64,000 bases of DNA from positions 86,782-150,781 of the forward strand of contig MCFG01000133.1 in assembly GCA_002104895.1 (NCBI GenBank), read 5' to 3'. Below the pieces are notes generated by a model. That model worked only from the letters and a program-made list of their open reading frames with translations. It was not told the DNA's origin and did not search any database. This DNA is from Anaeromyces robustus. Lineage: Eukaryota > Neocallimastigomycota > Neocallimastigomycetes > Neocallimastigales > Neocallimastigaceae. The position numbers and the translations under genes were made by a program. Shown here one piece after another: positions 22,400-62,591 of this stretch. Position 1 is the first letter of the stretch; every line of letters begins with the position of its first letter.

Positions 22400-23433
22400 A
22401 TTAAGTATGGGTGGTTTAGTTTAAACAACGGTCAGGTCAAGATTAGGTTAATAATCTTACAAAGATTATAAAAATTTGAAAAATTAATTCCTATTTATAC
22501 TATTTTTAAAACTAATAATTATTAACACATTTAATTATTATAATTTAATATTAATATATTGATGTATAAAATTAAATAAAATATATGAATAAAGTAATAT
22601 TGATTAAAAATCTAATAATAAAAACTAGTATGTAATTATTAATAATAAAATAAAGAGTTATAATTTAAGATTTAAATTTATAATTATATGATTATCTAGT
22701 ATACTAATTAATTAATTATATATATAACAATTATTTATATCTTTAATTTTTATATTATTTTCTGAATATTTAAATTTAAATAAAATAGTTACTTGAATTA
22801 TTTAGAAACTTAGAATTCTAAAAAATTCTAAATATTTGAAAATACTTTTAAGGAATTTTTTAGAATAAAATAATAATTATTTATTCTAATAATTATTAAT
22901 TAAATATTATAATAATTATTTATTCTAATAATTATAATAATTATTAATTAAATATTATAATAATTTATCTAAAACTAATATAACTATTTTAAATAGTATT
23001 TAAAATTATTATTAATACTTAATTCTGTAAATTCTCTATTATTATAGTTAATAAAATAATAATTGATTTAAAGATTTTATCTATATAATTTTTAATTTTT
23101 TTATTTAAAAGTCCTTCTAAATAATTAGATTATATATTCTATATTTCTAAATTCTTTAAAGTTCAATATCTCGCGAGATAATGTTCCAAATGGGCCGGAA
23201 TTAAGATTTATAGTTATTTTTTCTTCAGATTCTTTTTACTAATTTATTAAGGGTTAAATTAAGTTGAATTATATTTATTTAAATTGTCCAAACCCTTTGC
23301 TTTTAAATTTAAATACTTTTTAATATTTATTTATTTTATTGAAAATCGAATTTTAAATGATTTAGTCAATAACGAAATTTAATTTCAATAAATCTAATAG
23401 TGAATTTCAATTTTAAATCCTCTAATATTAGGG
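22400..23433 (+). mobile_element. Repeat A copy upstream of tRNA-Met
   Basis: It starts near TTAAGTATGGGTGGTTTAG and AACGGTCAGGTCAAG, has the AATCTTACAAAGATTAT hairpin and the CTCGCGAGATA block (23170), and ends in CTAATATTAGGG at about 23421-23433. The terminal AATATT is 70 bp from the first base of the tRNA at 23499. No ORF. Confidence 0.65.
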
Positions 23434-23498
23434 AAAATATCACTTTTTTACTAAAAACTTATGATATTTACTACCTTGTATATCTCATTTAAGTGTAA

Positions 23499-23571
23499 GC
23501 GAAGTTGGCGCAGTCGGCAGCGCGTAAGTCTCATAATCTTAAGGTCGTGAGTTCGAACCTCACACTTCGCA
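23499..23571 (+). tRNA. Elongator tRNA-Met (CAT)
   Basis: The 73-nt cloverleaf has acceptor GCGAAGT/ACTTCGC, anticodon loop CTCATAA (anticodon 23532-23534), T arm GTGAG-TTCGAAC-CTCAC and discriminator A. The normal T loop and G1:C72 distinguish it from the initiators at 11579 and 34397. The T-T juxtaposition at the top of the anticodon stem is usual for elongator Met tRNA. Confidence 0.95.
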
Positions 23572-23593
23572 TTTTAATTTTTCTTTTTTTTAA

Positions 23594-23808
23594 ATATAAA
23601 TAAATAAATAAATAAATAAATAAATAAATAAATAAATAAATAAATAAATAAATAAATAAATAAATAAATAAATAAATAAATAAATAAATAAATAAATAAA
23701 TAAATAAATAAATAAATAAATAAATAAATAAATAATAAATAAATAAATAAATAAATAAATAAATAAATAAATAAATAAATAAATAAATAAATAAATAAAT
23801 AAATAAAA
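23594..23808. repeat. Microsatellite (AAAT)n, about 53 units
   Basis: An almost pure tetranucleotide array with one 3-bp interruption near 23732. It starts about 25 bp after the tRNA-Met gene. Confidence 0.95.
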
Positions 23809-24142
23809 GATTTAATAATCAATAATTTTTTTTTTTTTAATTTTAAACAGATTAAAGATGAATTAATTTATAATTCTGAAATTATTTAATACTAAAAGTT
23901 GTATGAAATAAAATATAAATAATTTTATAGATTATAAGAATTGATTATTATTTATATATTTTATTAAATATATAAATTATATTTAATTACCAATCTTCAC
24001 ATATAATAACTTATTCAATTTACATTAATAATTTAATTCATTTTTGCTTTTCCTTTTTTTTTTTTTTTTTTTTTTTTGAATCATTTATTTAATCAGTATA
24101 ATATAATTCATTTAATAATACAATAATATATATATTTTCTTA

Positions 24143-60217: not shown

Positions 60218-60717
60218 TATGATTCCTTGTTTTTTTTTTATATCATTTAATCTATTTTCTTTTTTTTTTTTTTTTTATAATCTTTTTGAAAATTTTAATT
60301 GTTATTATTATTAAATTATATATGTTTAATAGGTTATTTATATTTTAAAATATATTTTATATATATTATATACAATAAATAATATTTTAATAAGATTTTA
60401 TTAACAATTATTTAAAATATTAAAGAAATATATTAAAGTTAATTATAATATAATATAATAAACAATATATTGATAAAATAATTATGTAATATAAAGTTTA
60501 TTATAAGAATATTTATTATAAAATTTATTATAAAATATTAATAAAATTATTTTAAGAATATTAATAATATTTATAATTAATAAGTTATTAATAAAATATT
60601 AATAATATAACAAATAATTTTTTTAATAAAGATATTAATAAAAGTATTATTTTTTAAGATATTAATAAACATTATAAAGAAGCTTCGTTTAATATTAATT
60701 TATAAAGAATAAAAGGT

Positions 60718-61153
60718 TTAATGTCAAAGATAGGAGATTTGATCTAATTAGTCAAGTCGGGATGTAGTTTTTATATTAAATAAAAAATAATATAATTTAT
60801 AATTAAAAATATATTTAACACTAAAAATGATCAATATTATAATAATTCTGTTTTTAAAAGTAATTTTATTAAAATAACTTTTAAGAATTTTTTTTTTTAA
60901 AAATAATCTAATATAAGTAGTAAGTAAAAGAAAAGAAAATGAAAATGAAATTAATTTTACAAAGAATCTAAAAACTAATTCTAAAATTATCTTTTTATAA
61001 TTTACTCTTGTAATCCTTAGTAATATTTTAACTAAAAATTATTTCAAAAATGATAAAAGTTAATAAAAATTAATATTTTGAAATTTCGTTTAATTAAAAT
61101 TTTATTGTTATATATAAAAATATTTTTAAATATTATAACTTACATATTTTCTT
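60718..61153 (+). repeat. Repeat C start and tRNA-Trp 5' flank, interrupted by repeat A
   Basis: Repeat C start (GATAGGAGATTTGATCTAAT) runs into the same flank as copies 3 and 4, ending at CTTGACATTTTT where repeat A begins. Confidence 0.6.
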
Positions 61154-61162
61154 GACATTTTT

Positions 61163-62451
61163 TTGTTAAGTTCGAGTGGTTTGGTTTAAGCAATGGTCAG
61201 ATTAATATGTTTAATTAATAACAAAATATCTAATTAAACAATATAACTTATAGATAATTTATTAAGACACAAGAATTAATTAATTAATTAATTAAACACT
61301 TTTTAAAAATTTAAGTTTTTTTTATTAAAATATTTTTTATTAATAATTAATTAAGAAAATTTAGAATAAGTAGTTAGATTATTAAGTCATTAACATTAAT
61401 TTATTAGTTTATAATTTTACAAAGATTATAAGAATTGAAAATTTAATTTCTATTTATATTTTTTCTAAAACTATTAATTACTAATACATTTAATTATTAT
61501 AATTTATTGCTAATATATTTATACATGTATAAAATCAATTAAAATATATGAATAAAATATTATTAATAAAAATCTAATAATATAAACTAATATAAAAACT
61601 ATTAATAAATTTAAATATAAAGAATTATAATCTAAGATTTTAGATTTATAACTATTCTAACTATATAATTATTTAACTATTTAGTATATTATTTAACTAT
61701 TTATCTATATAATAATTATTTTTATCTTTTGAATCTTATATTATTTTCTGTATAATTAAATATAAATAAATGGCTATTTTAATTATTTAAGATCTTAGAG
61801 TAATTTTAAATCTTTAGAAATTTTTAGAATTCTAAGAAATTCTTTAAATTAATATAATAATCAACTATTCTAATAAATATAAAAAAATAATTAATTATTA
61901 TAATAAATTATTTTAAACTATTATTATTATTTTAAATAATATTTAAAAATATTTTAATGGCGTAATTCTGTAAATTATTCATTATTATGGTTTATAATAT
62001 AATTATTGATTTAAAGATTATATCTATATAAAATTATAATTTTCCATTTAGGGCCCTTCTAAATATTTAAATTATATTTTTATATTTGAAATTCTTTAAA
62101 TTGGAATATTTCGTATGTTAGTGGTCCAAGTAAGCTGAAATTTAGATATATTGTAGCTCTCGAGAAGAGCTTCCCAATGAGTATAAAATCAAAGCGAAGC
62201 GGAGGAAATCTTCAATATTTGGCGAGTTATCGTTATTTTTCTTCATATTATTTTTGCTAATTAATTAAGGGTTAAATTAAGTTGAATTATATTTATTTAA
62301 TTTGTTCAAACCCTTTATTTTCATAATTTATGTACTTTCTAATATTTGTTTATTTTATTGAAAATCGAATTTTAAGTGATTTAGTCAATAACGAAATTTA
62401 ATTTCAATTGGTCTATTAGTGAATTTCAATTTTAGATTCATTAATATTCGT
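61163..62451 (+). mobile_element. Repeat A inserted in the 5' flank of tRNA-Trp
   Basis: It starts about GTTAAGTTCGAGTGGTTTGG and ends ATTAATATTCGTGATA. The left flank GACATTTTT (61154-61162) and right flank GATATTTTT (62452-62460) followed by CCAGCATT rejoin to give the uninterrupted flank of copies 3 and 4. Length is about 1.29 kb. Interior blocks: AGCTTCCCAATGAGTATAAA and AGCGAAGCGGAGGAAATC. No ORF. Confidence 0.7.
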
Positions 62452-62519
62452 GATATTTTTCCAGCATTATTATTTTTTATTTATATTTTAGGTTTAAGTA
62501 AATCTAGTTCAACAAGTAA

Positions 62520-62591
62520 GGAGGGTTGGCGCAACGGTAGCGCGTCCGTCTCCAGAGCGGAAGGTTGGGCGTTCGAATCGCTCACTCTCCA
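62520..62591 (+). tRNA. tRNA-Trp (CCA), copy 5
   Basis: One C-to-T change relative to copy 3 in the anticodon stem turns G:C into G:U, so folding is kept. Its flank is the most diverged of copies 2-5. Confidence 0.93.

Follow-up and report, generated by a model that had tools for sequence, protein, structure and literature searches.

Repeat A is the long terminal repeat of a Ty3/gypsy retrotransposon that very probably inserts at a fixed distance and orientation beside tRNA genes and tRNA-like LTR boxes

Three transfer RNA (tRNA) genes in a 64-kb stretch of contig C39 (positions 86782-150781, called here the window; the assembly comprises 70.2 Mb in 769 contigs) are each preceded by the same dispersed sequence, repeat A, always in one orientation. 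The question raised by this locus is what repeat A is, and what brings it to these places. A sequence-only reading had noted that the AATATT terminus of the repeat lies at a nearly fixed distance from tRNA-Met, tRNA-Cys and tRNA-Trp, and had proposed a non-coding element that targets tRNA genes. The positions, the orientation and the near-constancy of the distance were confirmed using ARAGORN and the sequence itself; the non-coding character was not. Repeat A is the long terminal repeat (LTR), ∼1.3 kb in length and often solo, of a coding Ty3/gypsy (Metaviridae-type) retrotransposon, designated here family A. Taken as a whole, the reading that repeat A is such an LTR and that its element inserts at a fixed distance and in a fixed orientation beside tRNA genes, and beside tRNA-like boxes in the LTRs of other elements, appears highly probable.

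The true end of the LTR lies seven bases beyond AATATT, which continues as CGCGACA or, in the copy at tRNA-Trp, as CGTGATA. The distance from this end to the mature tRNA is 62 bp at tRNA-Met, where the LTR end is degenerate and its position inferred, and 64 bp at both tRNA-Cys and tRNA-Trp (Table 1). ARAGORN identifies 11 tRNAs in the window, three of which have a repeat A end at this near-fixed distance; the other eight have none at the equivalent place in the 260 bp upstream that were inspected. The LTR at tRNA-Trp is bordered on both sides by T runs corresponding to a 5-bp target-site duplication (TSD). The 5' flank of this site recurs, without the LTR, at three paralogous tRNA-Trp genes (56446, 58434 and 60146). 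When joined, the flanks of the filled site align to all three paralogous flanks through the insertion point, with the T-run duplication of 5 bp and a difference of one T. The three LTR-less flanks are natural empty sites of the Trp insertion. The Met, Cys and Trp loci are therefore not copies of one ancestral segment; common descent of the three was an outcome that the sequence-only reading had set beforehand as refuting its claim. Window positions 50625-62591 hold eight tRNA-Cys and tRNA-Trp genes within 12 kb, and more of both occur on contigs C219, C632 and C661, forming amplified clusters.

The pattern extends beyond the window. The 18-base LTR end CCACTAATATTCGCGACA has 118 exact occurrences genome-wide, with none in the backward control. 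Out of at least 118 family A copies, we analyzed 41 outward LTR ends, 31 of them distinct ends from 40 fetched loci and the window, and ten taken later, in listing order, after the first positions were known. The ends were picked either for being the closest matches of the window copies or by listing order, and form a non-random sample. Because of age, selection and duplicated contigs, they represent somewhat fewer independent insertion events: contig C661 matches window positions 62230-62520 at 100% over 291 bp, and on contig C632 (locus L048) 120 bp around the LTR end are identical to the site at window position 48400, each being possibly an allelic contig or a recent duplication. L048 stands for the 48400 site, and L009, a 100% duplicate, for the window Trp site. 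We excluded L010, whose end is mutated to CGCAACG; the degenerate Met site; an end near 52374 that does not match the end pattern; three ends running into the element's own interior (identical ones collapsed); and L001-L008, which duplicate refetched places or the window itself.

The internal promoter of tRNA genes served as the landmark, with a B box scored at no more than two mismatches to GGTTCRANTCC and its start counted from the LTR end. A B box is present at 111-124 bp in 24 of the 41 outward ends (19 of the first 31 and five of the later ten). The test interval of 105-126 bp was fixed only after all 41 ends had been seen; with the 111-120 bp range of the first 31 ends, the later ten give 4/10, the fifth being L058, with its B box at 124 and its A box at 71. 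Altogether, the 41 stretches contain 25 B-box matches, the sole extra one at 273 bp. First-order Markov sequences gave a mean of 0.3 of 41 and a maximum of 3 in 300 rounds, and at the opposite LTR end a B box fell within 105-126 bp in 0 of 30 cases, four of which look into the element's own interior. A paired A box starts at 65-76 bp in 22 of the 24 boxed ends (missing in L021 and L034). The orientation is 24 to 0, with the 5' LTR adjoining the target and the element pointing away.

A test on coordinates gave a concordant picture. We compared 100 listed of the 118 LTR ends with 63 scored matches to Rfam RF00005 (from 2,506 candidates), 23 tRNA-Trp and 19 tRNA-Cys genes, and 100 listed of 218 tRNA-like LTR boxes. 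Among the matches listed, a same-strand target is found 63-68 bp from 12 exact LTR ends, namely seven distinct tRNAs at 63-67 bp and five tRNA-like LTR boxes at 64-68 bp; the next nearest same-strand pairs among them are 269, 474 and 485 bp apart. Ten of the 12 sites are also among the 41 ends, and the extra two are tRNA-Cys genes on C83 and at C39:67022. The genome-wide distribution of distances, on which the sequence-only reading had made its claim depend, is not flat.

What the LTR ends face is broader than had been supposed. Six of the 24 boxed ends face a tRNA recognized by ARAGORN (Trp twice, Cys twice, Arg and Gly), and the target in L058 is probably a gene of the tRNA-Ser type, long in the variable arm and truncated where the fetched sequence stops. 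To this extent the identification of tRNA genes as targets stands, but more of the ends (13 of 24) face LTRs starting with TGTAACG, which belong to another family, family C, and its relatives. The remaining four face other boxed sequences (L021, L022, L034 and L056). Most TGTAACG LTRs shown in sense carry tRNA-like boxes ∼35 and ∼78-79 bp inside the LTR; the boxes lie nearer the start in L023 and are absent in L041. At the 13 TGTAACG LTRs, repeat A sits 32-45 bp outside the LTR, and the flanks in between are unrelated (median pairwise identity 0.37, maximum 0.63); in L023 the flank reads by eye as internal sequence of a TGTAACG element of that kind. This arrangement suggests that an RNA polymerase III (Pol III) promoter, and not the local sequence, is likely the landmark.

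A search of 11 loci without an ARAGORN tRNA, seven of them boxed, found no match to Rfam families (5S, 7SL, U6 and others) up to E 1. Other Pol III RNAs were accordingly rejected as targets in these loci, and the tRNA-like modules in the boxed ones are therefore not normal tRNAs. A conserved sequence of ∼370-450 bp (TCGACCAGTTTCTATCC...) with a B-box-like motif was seen in L021 (from ∼2065), L034 (from 1391) and, in part, L018 (from ∼2700; coordinates in repeat-A orientation); in L021 and L034 it is preceded by repeat A at a distance of ∼60 bp. Searched against Rfam in L021 and L018, the sequence gave nothing up to E 1; it may be a short interspersed nuclear element (SINE).

The identity of repeat A follows from its ends and its neighbors. 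In 12 near-full copies the LTR measures 1329-1341 bp, starting with TGTTAAAT and ending with TCGCGACA (TG...CGACA). We compared 28 full LTRs (15 solo-type, four 5' LTRs and nine 3' LTRs) and found exact 5-bp TSDs in nine of the 15 solo-type LTRs: TTAAA three times, TTTGA, TTTAA, GTTTT, TTATC, TTCAA and ATTTA. The structure of the element was pieced together from partial copies, none of which spans both LTRs and the full interior end to end. At four loci (L012, L013, L018 and L022) a long gag-like open reading frame (ORF) lies directly inside the 5' LTR, on the strand opposite to repeat A, and at nine loci a purine-rich tract of the GGGGGAGCGA type is found immediately 5' of the 3' LTR. Contig C31 carries a 917-codon ORF that stops ∼0.8 kb ahead of the 3' LTR and encodes, in this order, RVT_1, RT_RNaseH(_2) (two RNase H models), Integrase_H2C2, rve and SH3_Tf2-1. 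Among PDB sequences, the Ty3 polyprotein comes closest to its integrase region (E 1.8e-34). As gag-pol lies on the strand opposite to repeat A, it is the 5' LTR that is turned toward the tRNA, and the reading direction of the element leads away from the target. The TG...CA ends, the TSDs and gag-pol rule out a non-coding element or SINE; the autonomous partner with the same ends that had been proposed as worth seeking does exist as gag-pol copies, but it is the same element, with repeat A as its LTR. In L024 (around 669 and 2006), repeat A is inserted exactly in the 5-bp GTTTT spacer between two oppositely facing sibling LTRs, and L052 contains a tandem A-TTATC-A junction, likewise a repeated use of the very same 5 bp.

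A 10-nt complement, ATAATCTTAC / GTAAGATTAT, would pair the first internal bases with a part of the LTR that follows a TATAAATA, giving a putative primer-binding site. It fits self-priming of the Tf1 type and is suggestive only, being statistically weak: a complement of 10 nt is also reached in 1.05% of Markov LTRs and at 6 of 134 other internal positions. The complement is present in the old copies at tRNA-Met and 14553-15711, and absent in those at tRNA-Trp and 47168 (two of four old window copies). The C31 integrase continues for 76 amino acids after the SH3 domain. By eye this tail resembles a chromodomain, but a chromodomain at the integrase C-terminus finds no support in the databases, where the tail matches no Pfam family and no PDB chromodomain up to E 10.

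The TGTAACG...CGTTACA sequences are themselves LTRs. They measure 529-748 bp and have exact 5-bp TSDs in eight of 18 rows, representing seven distinct copies (including the boxless L041). Among 100 listed family C boxes, 20 same-strand pairs are 4.38-4.57 kb apart, and a full-length family C element is therefore ∼5.1 kb long. The copy in L038 has a gag ORF (Retrotrans_gag E 4e-12, Ty3_capsid E 9.8e-11) and an aspartyl protease ORF (RVP_2 E 1.4e-4); no reverse transcriptase or integrase ORF was seen in this copy, where the sole other same-strand ORF of at least 70 codons has 80 codons. A SINE reading of family C is ruled out by the defined ends, the 5-bp TSDs and the paired LTRs enclosing gag and protease.

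A second class of insertions, with ...TATCA ends, occupies a different position. Such ends lie 14-15 bp upstream of the window tRNAs at 11579-11650 (-), 50998-51069 (-) and 55374-55446 (+), and 15 bp upstream of tRNA-Arg in L026. This class bears on the family A ends without a B box. In eight of them (L011, L014, L016, L020, L030, L039, L054 and L059) a TG-starting element begins at 55-58 bp from the A end. This intervening element has one sequence in both L011 and L030, and another in L014, L016 and L059; L014 and L016 may be duplicates of each other. In L020, L039, L054 and L059 the intervening element interrupts a TGTAACG LTR after the first 18-19 bp, immediately ahead of the boxes, a split point that approximately matches the position of the second class relative to real tRNAs. 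By eye, the boxless ends in L048, L051 and at window position 16657 face remnants like the second-class LTR end (...GGGAATATTGTATCA at 16657, with no Pol III boxes downstream). Among the other boxless ends, L052 is the tandem described above, L017 and L024 abut a sibling LTR, and L040 reaches the contig end.

Several observations weigh against the reading of repeat A as the LTR of a targeted Ty3/gypsy element. In all, 17 of the 41 outward ends have no B box at the expected place; about eight of these are partly accounted for, as their targets could have been split by later insertions, and two, L031 and L053, are without explanation. L010, outside the 41, has no box either, and in the window the family A ends at 48400 (+), 16657 (-) and ∼52374 (-), the last being that of an inverted LTR piece, lack a B box within 300 bp. 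Near the far LTR end, five scattered B-box matches occur in 4 of 30 cases (at 0, 82, 85, 199 and 270 bp). On the coding side, the gag-like ORF of family A reaches E 0.2 against Pfam Retrotrans_gag, below the family cut-off; no protease was identified for family A; and the C31 reverse transcriptase is cut short at its start because the first part of the ORF is of low complexity.

The fixed distance might instead reflect segmental duplication of blocks containing a tRNA gene together with its LTR. The tRNA-Trp and tRNA-Cys genes are indeed clustered and duplicated, C661 copies the window Trp site outright, L011 and L027 have a common flank and the TSD TTAAA, and the flanks of L014 and L016 are similar. 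The empty sites refute duplication for the window, where paralogous tRNA-Trp genes lack the LTR, and elsewhere it is refuted by distinct TSDs (TTTGA, GTTTT, TTATC, ATTTA, TTCAA and others) and by the unrelated flanks at the 13 TGTAACG LTRs; moreover, the targets are of unrelated types (Trp, Cys, Met, Arg, Gly and tRNA-like LTRs). We regard duplication as very improbable. We give an equally low standing to the notion that insertion is fairly random and that only copies near Pol III genes survive selection. Within one genome, the outcome of targeting resembles that of selection, which also counts against our preferred explanation, but the pattern is already present in near-full young copies (∼96-100% identical), neither a window of ∼14 bp nor a single orientation would readily be expected from selection, and insertion beside other LTRs would bring no obvious safety benefit.

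Still less credible is that repeat A inserts by recognizing a DNA sequence, or that it is a non-coding element (a SINE or a miniature inverted-repeat element) moved by another enzyme. In favor of this idea, the window copies are solo LTRs or fragments, with no adjacent gag-pol in the stretches read; yet the LTR borders gag at one end of the element and pol at the opposite end, the TSDs have no common motif except AT content, and the flanks at tRNA-like LTRs are unrelated. Targeted insertion of a Ty3/gypsy element beside Pol III promoters remains the explanation we prefer.

Table 1. Family A LTRs and target tRNAs in the window, and family C copies at other loci (the latter with coordinates given in repeat-A orientation)
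Feature	Position	Strand	Evidence and remarks
Family A LTR copy, end missing	14553..15711	+ (repeat A on -)	82% over 1.2 kb
Family A LTR pieces	16658..17246	+ (repeat A on -)	exact CCACTAATATTCGCGACA end at 16658-16675
Old family A LTR upstream of tRNA-Met	22399..23436	- (repeat A reads +)	∼73% identity to other copies over 1 kb; ends degenerate, start approximate, set by eye
tRNA-Met (CAT), target	23499..23571	+	ARAGORN; 62 bp from inferred LTR end; B box exceeds two mismatches
Family A LTR fragments without intact end, upstream of tRNA-Met 34396-34469 (-)	34554..35952	+ (repeat A on -)	
Old family A LTR, CGCGACA end	47168..48402	- (repeat A reads +)	73% over 1.3 kb; no B box in 300 bp
Rearranged family A LTR: inverted 52383-52966 and forward end piece 52974-53278 ending CGCGACA	52383..53278	.	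BLAST
tRNA-Cys (GCA), target	53343..53414	+	ARAGORN; LTR end 64 bp away
Family A solo LTR, 1292 bp, upstream of tRNA-Trp	61164..62455	- (repeat A reads +)	TG start, degenerate CGTGATA end
tRNA-Trp (CCA), target	62520..62591	+	ARAGORN; LTR end 64 bp away
Family C copy	L014:2434-3149	repeat-A orientation	
Family C copy	L032:8765-9481	repeat-A orientation	
Family C copy	L035:8763-9292	repeat-A orientation	
Family C copy	L038:2695-7939	repeat-A orientation	

The feature common to tRNA genes and TGTAACG LTRs is the pair of A and B boxes, and judging from these boxes the landmark is likely to be occupancy of the Pol III promoter. The integrase or pre-integration complex of family A would contact TFIIIB, TFIIIC or Pol III from the upstream side, in one fixed way round. 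At 62-67 bp upstream, the insertion site would fall immediately past the footprint of TFIIIB. Given this position, and given that the boxes are common to the targets, the tether protein at the boxes would most likely be TFIIIB or TFIIIC. Insertion is precise and of the LTR type, with a 5-bp target duplication and the 5' LTR next to the target, and the solo LTRs would presumably have been left by LTR-LTR recombination. It is moderately probable that the family C boxes assemble Pol III factors and so lure at least two independent classes of retrotransposons, family A at ∼-65 and the TGATA...TATCA class at ∼-15, to the same two distances as real tRNA genes. If so, family A insertions would naturally record where Pol III factors occupy the LTRs of retroelements. 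The insertions also show mobile elements settled side by side at Pol III landmarks that they share.

The window has a GC content of 10-24% (in 2-kb steps), and a search of the assembly with the CBM_10 dockerin family returned at least 150 scored matches, all above the cut-off, from 683 candidates. Together with the extreme AT content, these dockerins indicate that the host is probably a member of the Neocallimastigomycota (anaerobic gut fungi). Family A would probably add an early-diverging fungal lineage, with a narrow site near -65, to the known hosts of Pol III-targeted LTR retrotransposons; in the table of one review, these are ascomycete yeasts and dictyostelids (PMC5911963). Among openly accessible papers, the listings of a literature search showed no Pol III-targeted retrotransposon described in anaerobic fungi.

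Comparisons with Ty3, TRE5 and DGLT-A had been suggested for the three window loci, and they are apt. A similar distance is known for DGLT-A of Dictyostelium lacteum, whose Dl_DGLT-A.1 and.2 are reported 63-64 bp (four copies, A.1) or 55-65 bp (two copies) upstream of tRNA genes (PMC5006619). Like family A, DGLT-A.1 is a Ty3/gypsy element at the same distance from tRNA genes; unlike family A, DGLT-A resides in an amoeba, has LTRs of 163-206 bp and is described in few copies (PMC5006619). TRE5 of Dictyostelium discoideum inserts ∼40-54 bp upstream of tRNA genes (PMC5911963), or 37-90 bp for TRE5-A (PMC5006619), but is a non-LTR (L1-type) element without LTR or integrase. Ty3 of Saccharomyces cerevisiae inserts 1-4 bp upstream of the transcription start and uses TFIIIB (PMC5911963). 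It shares with family A the Ty3/gypsy type and a Pol III promoter landmark, and it is the closest PDB sequence; unlike family A, wild-type Ty3 would appear to insert in both orientations. Ty1 targets its sites via Pol III subunits (PMC5911963; PMC10050235). Among the entries of the review table, fungal Ty3/gypsy elements insert less than ∼30 bp from the gene, and for the copia-type Ty1, Ty2 and Ty4 the window is ∼1 kb wide (PMC5911963).

The tRNA-like LTRs recall Helenus, a group of short non-autonomous terminal-repeat retrotransposons in miniature found in rusts, some Agaricomycetes, animals and plants, with tRNA-like boxes in the LTR (PMC10886601). Family C resembles Helenus in its A and B boxes and 5-bp TSDs, but at ∼5.1 kb, with gag and protease ORFs, it is not a short non-coding element of this kind. 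The main text of the Helenus paper does not name Neocallimast-, Anaeromyces or Piromyces (PMC10886601), and our search, mostly at the level of listings, found no report of Helenus-like LTRs as targets of Pol III-directed insertion. The targeting of tRNA-like LTRs by family A suggests that LTRs of the Helenus type may bind Pol III factors in vivo, and would offer a cheap genome-wide readout of such binding.

In orientation, the nearest parallel is Tj1 of Schizosaccharomyces japonicus, which lands 5-11 bp upstream of mature tRNAs and invariably reads the same way as its target; its authors knew in 2015 of no other wild-type LTR element with a fixed orientation (PMC4600332). Listings of openly accessible papers from 2016 on showed no description of a case like family A. 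Family A is, like Tj1, a Ty3/gypsy element upstream of Pol III genes with an orientation fixed relative to the target, its integrase has an SH3_Tf2-1-type end, and it may possess a self-priming site like that of the Tf1/Tj1 group. Unlike Tj1, it lies at 62-67 bp and in the opposite direction, and would represent an LTR retrotransposon whose fixed orientation leads away from the target. Pol III-targeted LTR retrotransposons are a kind already known, to which family A would add a narrow site near -65, the reversed fixed orientation and the use of tRNA-like LTRs as targets.

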